Shown: positions 24,172 through 38,163 of the stretch, one piece after another
Numbering within the stretch: the first letter of the stretch is position 1
Layout of the letters: each line of letters starts with the position of its first letter
DNA from: Fimbriimonadales bacterium
Lineage (GTDB): Bacteria; Armatimonadota; Fimbriimonadia; Fimbriimonadales; Fimbriimonadaceae
Reading direction: 5' to 3'
NCBI GenBank assembly: GCA_026418055.1
Contig: JAOACB010000001.1
Location: 62,001-126,000 of the forward strand
DNA length: 64,000 nt
Notes under the pieces: generated by a model
The model's database searches: none
What the model was told of the DNA's origin: nothing
What the model saw: only the letters and a program-made list of their open reading frames with translations
Position numbers and translations under genes: made by a program

Positions 24172-25680
24172 GTGATGCTGCAGAGCTACCTCCGGCGGAT
24201 TCTCCTGGCGAAGGTGTACGACGTGGCGGCGGAGACGCCCTGCGAGCTCGCACCGGTGCTCAGCCGCAGACTGGGTTGCGAGGTTTGGCTGAAGCGAGAG
24301 GACCAGCAGTGCGTCTTCTCGTTCAAGCTGCGGGGGGCCTACAACAAGATGGCCTTGCTCCCCGATGAGGCTCTGGCGAAAGGCGTTGTGGCGGCCTCGG
24401 CCGGCAACCACGCTCAGGGGGTCGCTCTGGCGGCGCGGCGGCTGGGAGCTTCCGCGACGATCGTGATGCCTGCGACCACTCCCCGCATCAAGGTCGACGC
24501 GGTTCGGCGCCACGGGGCGGAGGTGGTTCTGTACGGCGACAACTACGACGCCGCCTACGAGAAGGCCCGCGGCCTGGCCGAATCGGGCGGCATGACGTTC
24601 ATCCACCCCTACGACGACCCCGACGTGATCGCAGGGCAGGGCACGATCGGGCTGGAGATGATCCGCCAGATCCCCCAGCCTTTGGACGCGGTGTTCGTGC
24701 CCGTGGGCGGCGGCGGGCTGATCGCCGGGGTCGGAGTGTGCTACCGGCTGCTCCATCCCGAGACGAGGGTGGTCGGCGTCGAGCCGGAGGATGCGGATGC
24801 CATGGCTCGCAGCCTCCGCGCCAAGCGCCGGGTGAGGCTCGAGAGGGTGGGGCGGTTCGCGGACGGAGTCGCCGTGCGGCAGGTCGGCGAAGAGACGTTC
24901 CGGCTGGCTCGGCAGGTCGTGGACGAAGTGGTCGTCGTGTCCAACGACGAGATCTGCGCGGCGATCAAGGATCTTTTCGAGGACCGGCGTTGCGTGCTGG
25001 AGCCGGCAGGCGCCTTAGCCTACGCCGGTTTGAAGCGATGCGTGCAGCGCCGGTCGAGCCGCGGGGGCAGATTCGCCGCCATCGCCAGCGGAGCGAACAT
25101 CAACTTCGATTCGCTGCGGCACGTGTCCGAGCGCGCCGAGATCGGCGAGCGGCGGGAGACGGTGTTCGCCGCCACCATCCCCGAGCGGCCAGGAAGCTTC
25201 CGCGAGTTCTGCGAGACCATCGGGCCGCACGAGATCACGGAGTTCAACTATCGCTACAATCCCGGCCCGGACGCCCACATCTACGTGGGCCTGCGCACGG
25301 CCAACCCCACCGAGGTGGCGACCCTGTTCGCAAAGCTGCGGCAGAAGGGCTACCAGGTGATCGACCTGACGGACGACGAGGTGGCCAAGCTGCACGTGCG
25401 GCACATGGTGGGAGGCCGGGCCAGGGCGAAGCACGAGCGCCTGTTCGCGTTCGTGTTCCCCGAGCGGCCGGGAGCCTTGCTGGAGTTTCTGCGTCGGCTC
25501 GAGCACCCGTGGAACATCAGCCTGTTCCACTACCGGAACCACGGCTCCGACTATGGAAGGGTGCTGGCGGGCATCCAGGTGCCTCCGTCGGACCGCGGCA
25601 AGCTGAGGGCGTTCCTGCGCGACTCCGGATTGGAGTGGACCGAAGAGACGAACAACCCGGCTTGCAGGCTGTTCCTCTAG
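24172..25680 (+). CDS. ilvA: Threonine ammonia-lyase, biosynthetic type
   Basis: Deaminates threonine to 2-oxobutanoate, the first step toward isoleucine. 502 residues (501 if ATG 24175 is used). PLP lysine K52 in CVFSFKLRGAYNK, the serine/threonine-dehydratase AASAGNHAQGVA, the phosphate loop VPVGGGGLIAGVG, then two ACT-like regulatory domains (about 325-410 FAATIPERPGSFREF and 420-500 FAFVFPERPGALLEF). The double ACT-like tail is the form known to be feedback-controlled by isoleucine and valine. The stop overlaps the convergent PAP2 stop. No Shine-Dalgarno sequence is present. Confidence 0.94.
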   Translation: MMLQSYLRRILLAKVYDVAAETPCELAPVLSRRLGCEVWLKREDQQCVFSFKLRGAYNKMALLPDEALAKGVVAASAGNHAQGVALAARRLGASATIVMPATTPRIKVDAVRRHGAEVVLYGDNYDAAYEKARGLAESGGMTFIHPYDDPDVIAGQGTIGLEMIRQIPQPLDAVFVPVGGGGLIAGVGVCYRLLHPETRVVGVEPEDADAMARSLRAKRRVRLERVGRFADGVAVRQVGEETFRLARQVVDEVVVVSNDEICAAIKDLFEDRRCVLEPAGALAYAGLKRCVQRRSSRGGRFAAIASGANINFDSLRHVSERAEIGERRETVFAATIPERPGSFREFCETIGPHEITEFNYRYNPGPDAHIYVGLRTANPTEVATLFAKLRQKGYQVIDLTDDEVAKLHVRHMVGGRARAKHERLFAFVFPERPGALLEFLRRLEHPWNISLFHYRNHGSDYGRVLAGIQVPPSDRGKLRAFLRDSGLEWTEETNNPACRLFL

Positions 25681-26237
25681 TCCGCTCTGGCTCCCGCCGC
25701 GCCAACGGTGCGGCGTCGGCTATCCGCCAACCAGGCGAAACAGGCTCCGACCGCGGATCCCAAAGCCGCCGCCGCGAGAACGTCGCTGGGCCAGTGCACA
25801 CCGCGGTAGATTCGGCTGACCGCCACGGCTCCTGCCCACAGCACGAGCAGCCAGCTCCATCGGAATTTGCCCCGCAGCATCAGCCAAGCGAACACCGCGA
25901 GGGCGAAGCTCGTCACCGTGTGGCCGCTGGGGAAGCTCGCGTACTGGAACGGCTCCTGAGGCTGGCTCCAAGCCAGCAGGCTGGGCCGCTCCCGACCGAA
26001 CAGATCCTTCAGAAGGGAATTCAGCAGGCCGGAGACGGCGAAGGCTCCGAGCAGATGGCGCCAGTAGGGGCGTGCGGCCGGGAACCTCCAAAGGGAAGCC
26101 GCCACCGCCAGTAGCTGCACCTGGCCCAAGCCGGTGTAGCTGAGCGCCAGAAACACGGGGTCCAGCCAAGGATGGCGCCATGCGAGGTGCACGGTCCGAA
26201 ACAGTTCCAGATCCGCTTGGCGCACGAGTTCCAGCAA
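25677..26237 (-). CDS. PAP2-family membrane phosphatase
   Basis: 186 residues with several transmembrane helices and the three acid phosphatase motifs: KDLFGRERP (KX6RP), FPSGHT (PSGH) and SRIYRGVHWPSD (SRX5HX3D). Such enzymes dephosphorylate undecaprenyl pyrophosphate, phosphatidic acid or phosphatidylglycerol phosphate; substrate cannot be chosen here. Start is TTG 26237, seven bases downstream of TAAACT (26245-26250); the TAA of that box is the stop of the upstream DUF4349 lipoprotein gene. The catalytic motifs face the outer side of the membrane in this family. Confidence 0.9.
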   Translation of the reverse strand: MLELVRQADLELFRTVHLAWRHPWLDPVFLALSYTGLGQVQLLAVAASLWRFPAARPYWRHLLGAFAVSGLLNSLLKDLFGRERPSLLAWSQPQEPFQYASFPSGHTVTSFALAVFAWLMLRGKFRWSWLLVLWAGAVAVSRIYRGVHWPSDVLAAAALGSAVGACFAWLADSRRRTVGAAGARAD

Positions 26238-26244
26238 CCCGAGG

Positions 26245-26250
26245 AGTTTA
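26245..26250 (-). promoter_or_regulatory. -10 box of the PAP2 gene (leaderless, TTG start)
   Basis: Minus-strand TAAACT seven bases before TTG 26237. It overlaps the stop codon of the DUF4349 lipoprotein gene. Confidence 0.4.
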
Positions 26251-27099
26251 CTGGCTCTCGGCGTCGGACGGTCCGGTCTGAGGCGGAGGCGGTGGAGGCG
26301 TGCGACCGCGGCGCCTGGACCACCGCACCAGCAGCACGACCGGCACCCAGAGCACCGCGAACACCACGACGAGGATGGCCAGGTGGACCAACCAGCGCAA
26401 AACCGCGAAGAGCGCGTTCCAAGCGCCGACCCATGCCTCCATCACCCATCCGCGCTGGGCCCCGAGACCGAGCGGCGTCCGTTGCCGGAAGGTGGCCGCA
26501 ATGGTGGACATGTCCGCCTGGTTCCGCAGAACCTTGAGCTGCCCATCGAGGCTTTCGATCTGCTGCCGAACCTCGCCGAGCCGCGAGCGGACTTGGAGGA
26601 CGTCTTGGACTGACCTCGCTTGGCCCAACAGCTCCAGGTACTGTCTCTCTTCGGCTCGAAGAACCTTGAGACGGGCCTCCAAGTCGGTGGCCTGGAGCGT
26701 GACGTCCTCGCTCTCGATCCGCTCGTACTCGCGATCGCCGAGTTGCTTGAGTCGGTCGATGGTCGCATCGAACCTGGGTTCGGGAACGCGCAGCACCGCC
26801 TCGGCAGAGGGAGAGTCCGATTCCCAGTTGAACACCCCGCCCGACTCCAAGTAGCCTCCCTGCTCCTTCGCGATTCTGCGGGCCGACTCGAGCGCCTTTT
26901 CCGCATCGTCCACCCGGATCGTGAGGTTCGCCTTGCGGATGACGACGCGCGGCACCGCGGCCGACCCTTCGGCGGAATCCCGGGGCGGGGGTGGGGCTGG
27001 AGCCACCCCCGTGGATGCGGATGGCGAGTCCGACCCAGACCCACACCCGATCAGCAACAGACCGATCGCCAGCAACAGCCACCGCGCCACCATCCGCAT
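26248..27099 (-). CDS. DUF4349 lipoprotein
   Basis: 283 residues. The N-terminus is a lipoprotein signal (MRMVARWLLLAIGLLLIGC, lipobox LIGC), so the protein is anchored outside the cytoplasmic membrane. A DUF4349 domain follows (VIRKANLTIRVDDAEKAL, EQGGYLES, LRVPEPRFDATIDRLKQLG, then a long coiled coil around EARLKVLRAEERQYLELLGQA), a C-terminal transmembrane helix (LVHLAILVVVFAVLWVPVVL) and a proline-rich tail. The topology thus has an outer helical hairpin between two membrane anchors. It is a shorter relative of the sensor half of the anti-sigma protein just upstream. Start ATG 27099 has AAGAGG just before it; the longer in-frame extension lacks support. Confidence 0.85.
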   Translation of the reverse strand: MRMVARWLLLAIGLLLIGCGSGSDSPSASTGVAPAPPPPRDSAEGSAAVPRVVIRKANLTIRVDDAEKALESARRIAKEQGGYLESGGVFNWESDSPSAEAVLRVPEPRFDATIDRLKQLGDREYERIESEDVTLQATDLEARLKVLRAEERQYLELLGQARSVQDVLQVRSRLGEVRQQIESLDGQLKVLRNQADMSTIAATFRQRTPLGLGAQRGWVMEAWVGAWNALFAVLRWLVHLAILVVVFAVLWVPVVLLVRWSRRRGRTPPPPPPQTGPSDAESQ

Positions 27100-27109
27100 C
27101 GCCTCTTCA

Positions 27110-27143
27110 GGGCCGGGCCGGCCCAGAAGGACCGCCCGGCCCC
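27110..27143. terminator. GC hairpin between the two DUF4349 genes
   Basis: Inverted repeat GGGCCGGGC ... GCCCGGCCC in the 65-base gap upstream of the DUF4349 lipoprotein gene. It may attenuate read-through or protect the upstream transcript; no T-tract. Confidence 0.4.
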
Positions 27144-27164
27144 AGCCCGCCTGTTGGCGCCAGC

Positions 27165-28280
27165 TTACATCAGTCGGCGTCGCAGGTAGGCGGCCAACAG
27201 CAGGGCGGGCAGCCAAAGGGGGGCGTAGACCAGCACGAAGATCGCCGCCGATCCCAGCCACCTCATCGTGGCGCCGAGCCCGTTGACGGCATTGGCCCAG
27301 GCTTCCCCGGCCCAGCCTGCACCGGTCGGAGCACCTCCCACCCGCGCGCGCTGCTCGAACGTCGCGCTGATGGTGGCGAGGGCAGACTGCCGCTCGAGCG
27401 TCCTTCGTCGGGCGTCCCGGCTCTCGATCTCTTGGCGCACTTGGTTGAGGCGCTCGCGGACCTGCAGCACCTGGCCGATGGTTCTCGCCTCTCCGAGCAA
27501 CGCCACATACTGCTGCTCCTCAGCCCGCATGACCTTGAGGCGGGCAGCGACGTCCGCGTGCTCCAGGGTCACGTCGTCCGCTGTCGAGTTCTCGGTGAGA
27601 ACCTCTCCCATGGCGCGGAGGCGAGCCATCGCTTCGTCGAATCGGGCCGTCGGCACGCGCAGGGTCGCCGACCCGATCGGGGGCGCCAGCTCGGTGGGTC
27701 TGCTCAGTCCGCTCGCGGCCACGTATCCGCCCAGCGCCCTCGCCAGGTTGTCGGCGGAGCGGAGCGCCTCCGCCGCGTCGGAGACCTTCAGTCGGATGTC
27801 TGCGGTGCGAACGATTCGACGAGCACCGAGCGCCTCCTCCGGAAGATCCGACGAGGCGAGGGCTGGCGCGGCACCCTCTGACCCACGAAGTCTCACGGAT
27901 TCCGCGAGAGCCGTTCCGGGCGCATCGAACGACGCGGAGCCCTCCTTGGAAGCGACCGCGACCGTCTCCAAGCCGGCTGGCCTGGATCCGAGCAACCGAA
28001 GGAGCCCGAACCCCACCACGGCGATGCAGGCCGTCGCAACGGCCCATCTGGGCCACCAAGCCCCTCGGCGCGCCGAGCGGTTCAGGTTCTCCAGAGTGGC
28101 CTCCAAGCCGACGGGCTGCGGATCTGCCGCCAGCCGTCGAACTTCCTCGCCGATCGATTCCATCTCCTCCAACTCGCGACGCAGGGAGGGATCCCCCTCC
28201 AAGGCCGCACGGACGGCGCTCGCCTCCTGTTCCGACAACTCTCGGTCCAGGTAGGCCTTCAGGTTCTCTCGCACGCTCAT
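27165..28280 (-). CDS. Anti-sigma factor with C-terminal DUF4349 sensor
   Basis: 371 residues. The N-terminal 75 residues (MSVRENLKAYLDRELSEQE ... LRRELEEM) look like a zinc-less anti-sigma domain. A transmembrane helix follows (about 78-95, WAVATACIAVVGFGLLRLLG), then a linker and an outer DUF4349 domain (RRIVRTADIRLKVSDAAEAL, LGGYVAASG, ATLRVPTARFDEAMARLRAMG, coiled coil LKVMRAEEQQYVALLGEA) and a second C-terminal membrane helix. The ATG at 28280 overlaps the ECF sigma stop (ATGA), the usual sigma/anti-sigma arrangement. The likely role is to hold the sigma factor at the membrane until the outer domain senses stress; the signal is unknown. Confidence 0.85.
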   Translation of the reverse strand: MSVRENLKAYLDRELSEQEASAVRAALEGDPSLRRELEEMESIGEEVRRLAADPQPVGLEATLENLNRSARRGAWWPRWAVATACIAVVGFGLLRLLGSRPAGLETVAVASKEGSASFDAPGTALAESVRLRGSEGAAPALASSDLPEEALGARRIVRTADIRLKVSDAAEALRSADNLARALGGYVAASGLSRPTELAPPIGSATLRVPTARFDEAMARLRAMGEVLTENSTADDVTLEHADVAARLKVMRAEEQQYVALLGEARTIGQVLQVRERLNQVRQEIESRDARRRTLERQSALATISATFEQRARVGGAPTGAGWAGEAWANAVNGLGATMRWLGSAAIFVLVYAPLWLPALLLAAYLRRRLM

Positions 28281-28792
28281 CGCACCACACCCTTGGCCCG
28301 CAGGGCCCGCTGAAGCTTCTGGAAGGCTTGATGGAGGCGGCTCTTCACGGTTCCGGCAGGTATGCCCAGGACGCGGGCTGCCTCCTCGTAGGTCAGACCC
28401 TCGACCTCGTGCAATAGCACCACCTCGGTGTGCTCGCTCGACAGTCCCCGCAACGCCTCGAGCAGGACGTGCCGATCGATCCACGACGCCTCGCCGCCAT
28501 CCGGGCAGTCCCGCCAGGCAGAGGAGCATGTCCTCGCGCGGACGCTCCGCCTCAGCACCCTTCTGCACTGGTTGTGGGCTATGCCGAAGAGCCAGACCTC
28601 GAACGAGGAATCGCCTCGGAACTTGTGCAGGGCGGCCTGCGCCGCCAGAAACGTCTCTTGGACGACGTCCTTTGCCGCCTCGGCTCCAACCCGGCGCGCG
28701 CAGAACCGATACACGGCGTCGTAATGCCGCCGGACCAAGTCGGCCATCGCCTCCCGATCTCCGCGCGAAGCTCGCTCCACCAACGAATCCAT
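28277..28792 (-). CDS. ECF-family RNA polymerase sigma factor
   Basis: 171 residues with sigma region 2 (LVRRHYDAVYRFCARRVG, AKDVVQETFLAA, SSFEVWLFGIAHNQCRRVLRR) and region 4 (ALRGLSSEHTEVVLLHEVEGLTYEEAARVLG, then GTVKSRLHQAFQKLQRAL). It is coupled to the following anti-sigma gene. The leader contains a seven-base-pair inverted repeat (GCGTGGG TGT CCCACGC, 28806-28822). ATG 28792 is preceded by a purine-rich GAGAGAGAGAAG stretch that can serve as ribosome binding site. Target promoters are unknown, but the operon's own DUF4349 genes are the first candidates. Confidence 0.93.
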   Translation of the reverse strand: MDSLVERASRGDREAMADLVRRHYDAVYRFCARRVGAEAAKDVVQETFLAAQAALHKFRGDSSFEVWLFGIAHNQCRRVLRRSVRARTCSSAWRDCPDGGEASWIDRHVLLEALRGLSSEHTEVVLLHEVEGLTYEEAARVLGIPAGTVKSRLHQAFQKLQRALRAKGVVR

Positions 28793-28859
28793 GCTTCTCT
28801 CTCTCTGCGTGGGTGTCCCACGCGGCGGGTTTCGTTCGAGCCTTTTTCAGGATTTGGTG

Positions 28860-28865
28860 TAGATT
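28860..28865 (+). promoter_or_regulatory. -10 box of rsmG (leaderless)
   Basis: TAGATT, eight bases before ATG 28874, with no Shine-Dalgarno sequence between. Confidence 0.45.
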
Positions 28866-28873
28866 CTCCTGCC

Positions 28874-29557
28874 ATGGATCGGGAGCGGTTCCTCGAAGCC
28901 TGCCGCCGGATTGGTCTGGGACTGACAGAGGAGGGGCTGCTCGCGTTGGAGGGCTTCGAGGACGCCCTGTATCTCGAGAACGAGGTGCGCAACCTCACCC
29001 GAGTGCCGAGAGATCGGTGCTGGGAGCGGCACTTCCTCGACTCGTTGCTGGTCCACAGCGTTCTTCCGGAACGGGCTGTCGCCCTCGACGTCGGCTGCGG
29101 TCCGGGGTTTCCCTGTGTTCCGCTGGCGATCGCCAGGCCCGACACGGAGTGGGTCGGTCTCGACTCTTCAGGGAAGATGATCGGCTTCCTTTCCCGGCAC
29201 CGGCCTCAGAACGTGAAGCCGGTGTGCGATCGAGCCGAGACTTGGGGGGTTCGCGAGCGTTTCGGGTTCGTCACCGGCAGGGCCGTCGCCCCTCTGCCGG
29301 TTCAGCTGGAATTGAGCGCGGCGCCGTGCGCTCTTGGGGGGCTGGTCGTTCCCTTGCGCACGCCGAGCGATTGGGACGCGATCGATCGAACGCCCCACGG
29401 AGACCTGGGACTCGCGCTCGAGAGGGTTCTGCAGGCGGAGTTGCCAGAGACGGGAGCCAAGAGGGTTCTCCCTATCTACCGGAAGGTGCGAGCCACCCCT
29501 CCCGCGTACCCTCGGTCCTGGGCCGAGATGCGCCGCAGGCCGCTCGGCTCGCGCTGA
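28874..29557 (+). CDS. rsmG: 16S rRNA (guanine-N7) methyltransferase RsmG
   Basis: 227 residues. Methylates N7 of G527 in 16S rRNA with S-adenosylmethionine. Motifs: EVRNLTRVPRD, ERHFLDSLLV, the SAM-binding ALDVGCGPGFPCVPLAIA, then WVGLDSSGKMIGFL and VTGRAVAPL. Start ATG 28874 is chosen by homology (FLEACRRIGLGL) and by the TAGATT box eight bases upstream. It lies alone rather than with mnmG or parAB. The next promoter begins seven bases after its stop. Confidence 0.94.
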   Translation: MDRERFLEACRRIGLGLTEEGLLALEGFEDALYLENEVRNLTRVPRDRCWERHFLDSLLVHSVLPERAVALDVGCGPGFPCVPLAIARPDTEWVGLDSSGKMIGFLSRHRPQNVKPVCDRAETWGVRERFGFVTGRAVAPLPVQLELSAAPCALGGLVVPLRTPSDWDAIDRTPHGDLGLALERVLQAELPETGAKRVLPIYRKVRATPPAYPRSWAEMRRRPLGSR

Positions 29558-29747: not shown

Positions 29748-30518
29748 ATGAAACGTTTAGCGGCAGGTTTCACGCTCATCGAGCTGCTCGTGGTGATCGC
29801 GATCGTCGCGATCCTCGCGGCGATCTTGTTCCCGGTCTTCGCTCGGGCGAAGGAGGCTGCCAAGAACACGGCCTGCCTGAGCAACGGGCGTCAGATCGGC
29901 ATGGCCCTGAGGATGTACGTCGCGGACAACGACGACACCATGCCGATCTTCTACGCCTACAACAGCCGGCCTCCGGCGGGCCAGCCCGGCCACAAGGGGG
30001 TCGAGGTGCTCTTGCTCGCCTACAGCGGCTCCAAGGACATCTTCCGCAGCCCGCTGGACGCCGGCGGGCCGTACACGTCGCAGGACGTTCCCGGTGCGGA
30101 CACCTACTGGAAGGCCTACGGCAGCTCGTACCGCTTCACCAAGTGCCTCTTCAGCGTGATCCCTGGAGAGTCCTCGCAGAACAACGAGCTGTACACGTAT
30201 GGGTGGACCGTCACGGACAGCATGGTGGAGTATCCCGCGGAGTCCCGCCAGATCCGGCTGGAGATGTTCCCGTTCTTCTCCCGGAAGGTCGACACCACCT
30301 GCCTGCGCTACGGGTACGACTGCGAGCCGCCTTACAACTACTATCGACAGTGGAGCTCGACGGGAGGCACCGTGATCTTCTCGGACGGGCACGCGAAGTT
30401 CCTCACGAGCGCGGGACAGTTCGACGAGACGCGGGTGAACCCGGAAGGCCGGAAGTCGGGAGAACCCACCGGCAACCCTGAGCCTTGGGAAGACACCTGG
30501 TACTGGGTCTGCGACTGA
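29748..30518 (+). CDS. Prepilin-type pseudopilin with C-terminal H-x-DG-like motif
   Basis: 256 residues. The N-terminus has a short basic leader and the prepilin peptidase site G/F in [12 protein letters not shown], with the conserved Glu at +5 and a hydrophobic helix ending [10 protein letters not shown]. The rest is an extracytoplasmic domain with Tyr/Trp-rich stretches, four cysteines, and SDGHAKFL near the C-terminus, as in the large pilin-like families of Armatimonadota and Planctomycetota. It has a proper AAGGAGG ribosome binding site eight bases before the ATG. Expression appears to be under the TPP riboswitch upstream, which is odd for this class. Function is not known: surface display, secretion or a substrate-binding role are possible. 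A strong terminator follows, so it is monocistronic. Confidence 0.88.
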
Positions 30519-36537: not shown

Positions 36538-38163
36538 TCATCGGCGATCGGCCGGAGCCTCCACTCGGGGGGTCCGGCCGTTCGCGCTCTGGTCGGCGTT
36601 CTGTTTGCGGCCGACGATCCTTCCCATGTCGACGGCCAGCACGCTGAACACCAGCAGCAGCACGAGCACGAATCCGACGTTGGCGACCAGGTTCTGCACC
36701 TGGATGCTGAGCCTTCGCCCCCTGCGCAGCATCTCCACGAACGCAACGAGCATCTGCCCTCCGTCCAACGGTGGGATCGGGAGCAGGTTCATGATGCCGA
36801 GCGAGATGCTGAGCCCAGCCGCCAGCGCGAGGATTCCCACCAGCCCCTGCTTCGTCGCCTCGAACGCGAACAGTGCGATGGTGCCCGGACCACCCACCTC
36901 CTCGCTGGCGCGCGCGGGCTGCCTCACGATTCCGAGCAGACCGGAAACCATCGCCACCGGCGCCATCGCTGCCTCGCGGAACGCCTGAGCGGGCGCGAGG
37001 CGAACGAGCTCCCTGGGGATCGGCACACCCATCTGAGCCTGCACTCGCAGCTCGCTCGTCGGCATCAGGTCCGGGCCGAGAACCGGAACGGGTCCGCTGC
37101 TGGCTTCCGGAACGATCTCCAAGTTCAAAACCTTTCCGTCGCGCAGAACCGAAACCCTCACCGGCTCGCCGGGTTTCTCGCGGATCACGCGCAGCACGTC
37201 GTAGAACCTTTGGACCGGTTGGCCATCCACCCGCACGAACCGGTCGCCGGCCTTCAGACCCGCTCTCGCGGCGGGCTTGTCCGCCAGCACCGAGGACACC
37301 ACGGGCGAGTTGGAGGGCCGGTAGACGCCGACCGTGCCGTACAGAGCCGCGAAGAGCAGGACGCCGAAGGCCACGGAGAAGAACGGTCCTGCGAGCAGGA
37401 CGATGAAGCGCTGCCAAGGCGGCTTGCTGTAGAAGCCTCCCGGGATGCGCGTCTCGCTGCCGTCGGGCTTCGGATGCATGCCTCGAATGGCCGCGAATCC
37501 GCCCAGCGGGAGGAGCAGCATCGAGAACTCGGTGCCGTCCTTGCTCCTGCGCGACCAAAGGGGGCGGAAGCGCACCGGCACCGAACTTCCGTCGATCTGC
37601 AGAGAACCTTCTCCCATGGGAGCATCCTCTCCACGACCCGCCACGGGCTGGTAGTAGAGGACCAGCAGACCCACCAGCGACGCCATGCCTAGGATCGCGA
37701 TCACCTGCGAAGGCTGCACGTTCTGGAAGCGCGTGGCCAGGAACAGCAATCCGAGCGAACCCACCCAAGCCAGACCCATCGTCTTGGCCCATTGCTCGGC
37801 GCGCAACCGGTACAAAGCCGCGAGCCGGGTGGCGACCCAGACTGGCAGAGCGATGCCCAGCGTCGCCAGGCTTGCCAGATACAACGGCACCAGCCTGGCC
37901 GTATTGGCTGCCAGGAGAACGCAGAGCGAAGCCAGAGCAACCATCCACAGGATCGACCCCGGGACGAGCGGCTTCGCCAGCAGGCGCGACAGATCCGTGC
38001 TGCGCCTGCCGCCCATCATGATCGCGAAGGCGTCCACCTTCATGCCGCAGAGGCGGGCCAGCAGGTAGTGGCCTAGCTCGTGCACGCCGACCAAAACGGT
38101 GATCACCACGAGGAACACCAGGGCCGATAGCAGAATCAGCGCAACCGACTGCAGGCTATCCAT
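36538..38163 (-). CDS. rseP: Site-2 intramembrane metalloprotease (RseP-like) with extra membrane insert
   Basis: 541 residues. Zinc motif HELGH (28-32) in the first transmembrane helix, a PDZ domain around SVLADKPAARAGLKAGDRF, and the second active-site motif MNLLPIPPLDGGQ in the C-terminal part. Such proteases cut membrane anti-sigma factors and signal peptides. The family's beta-loop motif (LPLGGFAAIRGM) lies at about residue 218, whereas it normally follows HExxH by about 40 residues: roughly 150 residues with four hydrophobic segments (about 70-88, 91-112, 128-145, 152-171) are inserted. The ATG at 38163 overlaps the dxr stop by eight bases, the common dxr-rseP pairing. The anti-sigma protein at 27165 is a conceivable substrate. 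Confidence 0.92.
   Translation of the reverse strand: MDSLQSVALILLSALVFLVVITVLVGVHELGHYLLARLCGMKVDAFAIMMGGRRSTDLSRLLAKPLVPGSILWMVALASLCVLLAANTARLVPLYLASLATLGIALPVWVATRLAALYRLRAEQWAKTMGLAWVGSLGLLFLATRFQNVQPSQVIAILGMASLVGLLVLYYQPVAGRGEDAPMGEGSLQIDGSSVPVRFRPLWSRRSKDGTEFSMLLLPLGGFAAIRGMHPKPDGSETRIPGGFYSKPPWQRFIVLLAGPFFSVAFGVLLFAALYGTVGVYRPSNSPVVSSVLADKPAARAGLKAGDRFVRVDGQPVQRFYDVLRVIREKPGEPVRVSVLRDGKVLNLEIVPEASSGPVPVLGPDLMPTSELRVQAQMGVPIPRELVRLAPAQAFREAAMAPVAMVSGLLGIVRQPARASEEVGGPGTIALFAFEATKQGLVGILALAAGLSISLGIMNLLPIPPLDGGQMLVAFVEMLRRGRRLSIQVQNLVANVGFVLVLLLVFSVLAVDMGRIVGRKQNADQSANGRTPRVEAPADRR

Follow-up and report, generated by a model that had tools for sequence, protein, structure and literature searches.

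Here we describe an ECF sigma factor locus that we read, with about an even chance of being right, as a self-activating envelope-stress system in which the domain DUF4349 serves as sensor or partner module, either fused to the anti-sigma factor or supplied in trans. Anti-sigma factors hold ECF sigma factors, some are destroyed stepwise upon a signal, and RseB binds the outer part of the anti-sigma factor RseA, as described in the relevant passages of PMC8103513. In the mechanism that we propose, the anti-sigma factor would hold the sigma factor at the membrane while its outer DUF4349 domain monitors the envelope, and a signal would make it give up the sigma factor, probably because proteases cut it in successive steps. 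The freed sigma factor would then switch on its own operon through the promoter TTGAAC-N16-GACACTCA. In the genus of the window, this operon would also yield a second, separate copy of the sensor half, anchored by lipid, which came from a tandem duplication, and a PAP2 phosphatase with a likely role in undecaprenyl carrier recycling. The free DUF4349 protein would be a product of the response and at the same time the functional counterpart of the outer domain of the anti-sigma factor. Since it is placed under the sigma promoter, in the window through the operon and in many relatives through a site of its own, it would sit in a feedback loop, most likely working with or against the anti-sigma factor, by ligand sharing or pairing, in the role of a feedback element or of a sensor in trans. 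A bacterial group that has been little studied gains a likely regulon for envelope stress, whose promoter can be read from the sequence, and DUF4349, rarely named in the literature that we searched, gains a testable role; our search found nothing that joined ECF, Armatimonad and anti-sigma.

All coordinates (Table 1) refer to the window, by which we mean the whole 64 kb stretch of DNA that was analysed. The lipoprotein gene begins 65 bases after the anti-sigma gene and is followed after about 10 bases by the PAP2 gene, while upstream of the sigma gene the rsmG (GidB/RsmG) gene runs divergently, with the promoter between the two. No terminators, sigma-70-type promoters or Rfam RNAs were found in positions 25500-29000. 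A profile search of the whole genome gives two DUF4349 matches only, both at this locus. The range considered in an earlier, sequence-only reading of this DNA, 27165-28792, encloses the sigma and anti-sigma genes, but the lipoprotein gene that it discussed (26248-27099) lies outside, and the PAP2 gene was omitted.

Table 1. Features of the sigma locus and a related gene, in window coordinates
Feature	Position	Strand	Evidence or remark
Predicted sigma-dependent, likely autoregulatory promoter	28810..28840	-	CTCGAAC -35 at 28834-28840, 17-base spacer, ACACCCA -10 at 28810-28816
ECF sigma factor, 171 aa	28277..28792	-	Pfam profiles; homologue directly 5' of the anti-sigma gene at 43/43 named-genome loci
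Putative anti-sigma factor, 371 aa	27165..28280	-	4-base overlap with the sigma gene
Predicted anti-sigma domain, residues 1-71, four helices, without Hx3Cx2C	28068..28280	-	Profile and AlphaFold model
Outer DUF4349 domain of the anti-sigma factor, residues 154-364	27189..27821	-	Profile and AlphaFold model
DUF4349 lipoprotein, 283 aa, best explained as a tandem copy of the anti-sigma outer half	26248..27099	-	
Lipobox LIGC of the lipoprotein	27043..27054	-	Read from the sequence; lipidation predicted
DUF4349 domain of the lipoprotein, residues 51-260	26320..26949	-	Profile
PAP2-family phosphatase, undecaprenyl-diphosphatase-like; first codon uncertain	25677..26237	-	3' neighbour of the lipoprotein gene
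RseP-like protease (M50), gene next to dxr; candidate for a general site-2 protease	36538..38163	-	Profile match

The sigma factor matches the Pfam profiles Sigma70_r2 and Sigma70_r4_2 with about 58 bits each (cut-offs 24 and 25.7), and its closest solved relatives are RpoE-type sigma factors. It carries sigma2 and sigma4 domains only, which is how the definition given in PMC8103513 delimits the ECF (group IV) sigma factors. Of the older hallmarks, AAC in the -35 box is present, as GAAC at all 29 sigma-gene sites by sequence, while CGT in the -10 box, which is no longer defining, is absent, the -10 element being ACACTCA-like. In the anti-sigma factor, AlphaFold (mean pLDDT 81.7) places N-terminal helices at residues 3-11, 17-29, 31-52 and 59-71, a membrane helix at 76-94 followed by a low-confidence linker, an outer alpha/beta domain with a long helical hairpin at 238-300, and C-terminal membrane helices at 323-351 and 353-370. 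The outer domain matches DUF4349 (PF14257) near full length with 158.7 bits against a cut-off of 27.7; profile and model together agree with the sequence-only reading, which had given the anti-sigma factor an outer DUF4349 domain, a long coiled coil and two membrane anchors. The N-terminus scores 21.6 bits against Pfam zf-HC2, just under the cut-off of 22.2, and its predicted structure has the three-helix bundle plus fourth helix by which the relevant passages of PMC7406223 define class I anti-sigma domains (ASDI). It lacks the zinc motif Hx3Cx2C, which is variable, occurs in about 56% of ASDI and is not defining. Two distant DUF4349 anti-sigma relatives carry a motif of the zinc type (HVVQCSEC at L330 of genome G080 and HLQNCPQC at L356 of G081), so the zinc-free form in the window may be derived. 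The anti-sigma factor would bind and inhibit its cognate sigma factor, as the overlap and co-conservation of the two genes suggest. No solved relatives of the anti-sigma factor were found by sequence up to E 1, and two Foldseek searches of the PDB with the models of both DUF4349 proteins gave no match at E 0.001; a second structure aligner listed mainly helical hairpins.

Upstream of all 29 aligned sigma genes lies the pattern (T)TTGAAC-N16-GACACTCA, with one and the same spacing in 28 and a tie between two spacings in the 29th; two loci with weak DUF4349 and divergent sigma factors (L085, L086) were left out of this alignment. Eighteen of these 29 promoters reach 12 of 14 matches, whereas only 1 of 1160 shuffles does so. 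A scan of named genomes shows the promoter, with a score of at least 12 bits, at 38 of 43 loci; these 38 comprise 18 training sites and 20 of the 25 loci that lay outside the training set. It precedes none of the sigma genes at 28 paralogous ECF sigma loci. A search of the 61 genomes of relatives returned 63 matches with the right spacing and 42 with a spacing one base longer. The promoter in Table 1 is the only site in the window that scores at least 9, and among the seven pattern matches in the window's genome it alone scores 19; one other, of 15.9, lies before no convincing gene. The sigma factor is thus likely to regulate itself through this promoter.

The lipoprotein matches DUF4349 near full length with 185.7 bits (cut-off 27.7). 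It has a lipobox, LLIGC, after a hydrophobic N-terminal stretch (MRMVARWLLLAIGLLLIGC), so that lipidation is predicted, and also a C-terminal membrane helix; in its AlphaFold model (mean pLDDT 85.5) the lipobox signal stands in place of the anti-sigma half and the rest is kept. In a tree of 52 DUF4349 domains of relatives, from which two fragments (L055 and L056) were left out, the lipoproteins of the genus group with the anti-sigma DUF4349 domains of the same three genomes (99/80), and the window's lipoprotein is therefore best read, on sequence grounds, as having arisen within the genus by tandem duplication of the outer half of the anti-sigma gene. The same tree holds an independent case of duplication in G050 (96/76, 57% identity) and places the dispersed lipoproteins mostly outside the main anti-sigma group. 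The lipoprotein is under purifying selection (dN/dS 0.11-0.24), with dS above 1, near saturation, in the comparisons with G000. Tandem copies also occur elsewhere: G006 has two tandem DUF4349 genes distant from its sigma gene, and the second of their products (L034, 4053-5060) has, in place of a lipobox, a helix ending in FPVFAQSK. Because this pair lies away from the sigma gene, duplication by itself is no proof of a regulatory role.

That the lipoprotein repeats the sensor half of the anti-sigma factor, as the sequence-only reading had noticed, is borne out by 46% identity over 201 columns (E 7e-53). That reading went on to suggest that the two proteins could associate in mixed complexes, the lipoprotein competing for an envelope signal or passing it on. 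Taken strictly, the lipoprotein would pair with the DUF4349 domain of the anti-sigma factor and, by competing for its signal, damp or tune the release of the sigma factor. Besides this identity, such pairing is consistent with the same predicted elements in both proteins, among them the helical hairpin and the C-terminal membrane helix, and with consecutive genes between which no terminator was found. However, some relatives have anti-sigma factors without hairpin and second anchor, which could not pair likewise, yet their lipoproteins bear the sigma site, and in its strict form we consider the proposal unlikely.

DUF4349 is present in 43 of the 61 genomes. The search for the sigma factor covered these DUF4349-bearing genomes, leaving aside the 18 without a match, and found the sigma/anti-sigma pair in 31 of the 61: 29 at first, and then G006 and G015 among 11 genomes that had appeared to hold the lipoprotein only. 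In these two, the anti-sigma factor keeps the N-terminal motif and has no recognisable DUF4349. In the remaining nine a DUF4349 lipoprotein is present and no sigma orthologue was found. In the named-genome scan, the sigma gene lies upstream of the anti-sigma gene at every one of the 43 loci, of which 39 are titled as Armatimonadota lineages and one as Abditibacterium, in partial overlap with the 61 genomes; one further locus (L282) is titled Methanoregulaceae archaeon, though the locus is bacterial and the title probably wrong. The sequence-only reading had suggested looking for conservation of sigma factor, anti-sigma factor and lipoprotein as a trio, and took a lipoprotein not conserved with the pair as grounds to refute the idea. 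Of the 31 sigma-bearing genomes, only 4 have a DUF4349 lipoprotein next to the pair, namely all three of the genus and one other, which rules out the trio as a conserved cluster. The expectation is wrong for gene order and right in an altered form for regulation: sigma-type promoter sites before the lipoproteins of relatives, together with the tandem duplication in the window's genus, tie the DUF4349 lipoprotein functionally to the sigma factor.

Those sites came to light among the places other than sigma promoters. Of seven scoring at least 16, five lie just before unlinked DUF4349 lipoproteins, among the loci then collected. Genes for ARPP-1 proteins have a site of at least 15.8 bits in 8 of the 11 sigma-bearing genomes with this family, also in G035 and G052, where a sigma factor was not found or not sought (assemblies 68% and 86% complete), and in none of the 7 remaining genomes, a group that the sigma search covered in part. 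A site of at least 12 bits precedes 7 of 30 genes for VIT-vWA proteins; two fragments of ARPP-1 (L248, L249) and a pair of VIT matches that lacked a locus were left out of the site scan. Single or paired likely targets are PQQ-propeller, MoxR, DUF4139, DUF2330 and fasciclin proteins. These other likely targets are mostly exported, besides one MoxR ATPase. One locus of G006 (L209) has three sigma-type sites within about 900 bases, before an ARPP-1 lipoprotein and two small lipoproteins that resemble each other. ARPP-1 and VIT proteins are absent from the window's own genome, where the regulon may therefore be little more than the operon.

A regulon of this kind could also mean that the lipoprotein is an output and nothing else, a sigma-induced structural or protective protein of the envelope without feedback, from which the anti-sigma factor once borrowed the domain for the same binding. 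The many other exported proteins in the likely regulon fit such a role, and so do the nine relatives in which no sigma orthologue was found, where the lipoprotein must have a separate function. Beyond the relatives, a plasmid collection gave eight records that match DUF4349, spread over the four phyla Bacteroidota, Actinomycetota, Bacillota and Gemmatimonadota. Seven of them encode lipoprotein-like proteins without a match to the sigma profile within 2.5 kb, and one, from Tsukamurella, has a sigma gene; because most of these records are sigma-free lipoproteins, the domain seems to be an old one of envelope lipoproteins. Against a pure output stand the derivation of the genus' lipoprotein from the anti-sigma factor itself and the way in which the lipoprotein's site tracks the decay of the anti-sigma domain, which plain output does not need. 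We hold the output reading to be a serious possibility that falls somewhat short of even.

This decay is seen in 13 genomes, in which most of the anti-sigma DUF4349 domain, usually with hairpin and second anchor included, has been lost or can no longer be recognised. A site of at least 10 bits, a threshold chosen after the weakest site had been seen, precedes an unlinked lipoprotein gene in 11 of 12 genomes with a degenerate anti-sigma factor, in 2 of 10 genomes (11 genes) with an intact one and in none of the 9 in which no sigma orthologue was found, against a background of 47 in 9600 resampled upstream regions. Counted over all genomes, a lipoprotein with a site is found in 11 of 13 degenerate and 2 of 36 intact cases (Fisher 1.9e-7, kinship ignored), and at 16 bits in 8 of 13 and 2 of 36 (Fisher 1.0e-4). 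G069, G070 and G071 are identical with G008, G015 and G046, so each of these three genomes entered the counts a single time. The pattern was drawn from 5 degenerate genomes and then tried on 8 new ones. The prediction that a degenerate anti-sigma factor goes with a free lipoprotein held in 7 of these 8, each having exactly one full DUF4349 elsewhere; five of the seven proteins have the lipobox pattern and two have ASFGC, and all seven genes are preceded by a sigma site, of 10.3 to 23.7 bits. Sister genomes show the contrast directly, G008 with a degenerate anti-sigma factor and a site, and G079 with an intact one and no site (fork 100/99). Three genomes are exceptions: G018 has a degenerate anti-sigma factor and a lipoprotein without a site, in G067, also degenerate, no lipoprotein was found, and G035 has sigma-type sites elsewhere and none before its lipoprotein. 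Some lipoproteins may also be hidden because the genomes are drafts. The best sigma tree has 8 changes of state and 3 well-supported independent contrasts, which on average give 2.4 in the expected direction and 0.1 against; with only three, a tree-aware sign test cannot reach 0.05 and is without power. The association of decay and promoter is thus strong by raw count, with only three independent well-supported contrasts behind it.

Taken with the duplication, this association points to a detachable sensor, a reading that we hold tentatively, as somewhat less probable than its opposite: the DUF4349 of the anti-sigma factor would act either in cis or in trans, as a lipoprotein under the promoter of the same sigma factor, and lineages would switch from one to the other as the module is duplicated and as its fused copy decays. 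The genus of the window, which has both, would stand in between; its anti-sigma DUF4349 is intact, so the logic of the split sensor is not directly applicable there. If the trans-sensor reading is true, a one-piece membrane sensor splits into two genes and is rewired through a promoter under its own control.

Repeated decay of the outer domain, with the anti-sigma domain, membrane helix and promoter kept, could instead mean that DUF4349 is a spacer or scaffold and not the sensor, the signal acting on proteases or on the undecaprenyl cycle through PAP2. PAP2 is the commonest other downstream neighbour seen, adjoining the pair in 5 of 29 relatives and at 9 of the 43 named-genome loci; other neighbour families are common to few genomes or apparently spurious. 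The PAP2 neighbour suggests a tie to the undecaprenyl cycle, to which BcrC of Bacillus is tied. Where DUF4349 is present, however, purifying selection on it is stronger than on the rest of the anti-sigma factor (dN/dS 0.10-0.20 vs 0.37-0.48), and we regard a mere spacer as quite improbable, more so than the mixed complexes.

Among known systems, RpoE-RseA-RseB of E. coli is alike in having an ECF sigma factor, a membrane anti-sigma factor and then a third protein in the same self-regulated operon, RseB being a periplasmic co-regulator according to the relevant passages of PMC8103513. Here, by contrast, the third protein is a paralogue of the anti-sigma outer domain, predicted to be a lipoprotein that has a second membrane anchor as well, and no RseB/MucB family is among its Pfam matches up to E 1. 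With class I anti-sigma systems such as SigW-RsiW, as treated in parts of PMC7406223, the locus shares the N-terminal four-helix domain, the membrane helix and the adjacent genes, and differs in its large outer DUF4349, second anchor and lack of a zinc motif. The lipoprotein resembles candidate 9 of the Methylobacterium Tat/tail-anchor proteins, which has an N-terminal lipobox, DUF4349 and a C-terminal membrane helix, but for which the relevant passages of PMC10924467 give no sigma link.

The closest parallel in another phylum is the Tsukamurella plasmid NZ_LR134459.1, where a sigma-70 gene and the gene of a membrane-anchored DUF4349 protein overlap by 4 bases (L394, 1587-3163). The protein there differs in having a short N-terminus without the conserved anti-sigma motif and is annotated only as DUF4349; the two genes are possibly an unannotated anti-sigma pair, and the pairing of sigma factors with DUF4349 may have arisen more than once.

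The sequence-only reading had also put forward the protein at 36538 as an enzyme that could release the sigma factor. RseP-like it is, with 193.5 bits against TIGR00054 (cut-off 147.55). A place as a dedicated member of the system is not supported: its gene adjoins dxr, the genome encodes three M50 proteins of which it is one, and the site scan of the 64 kb window found no sigma site before it.

A minor observation concerns the first membrane helix, which in eight anti-sigma factors of relatives (L068, L073, L080, L037, L062, L065, L350, L352) ends in FPVFAQSK or close variants; the window's own anti-sigma factor is without it. The same letters end the N-terminal helix of many pilin-like proteins; they occur at 29748-30518 of the window and at 39 places in the genome, and at the 30 loci inspected all 32 matches were pilin-like. 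Possible explanations are copying of the helix or a common juxtamembrane signal.
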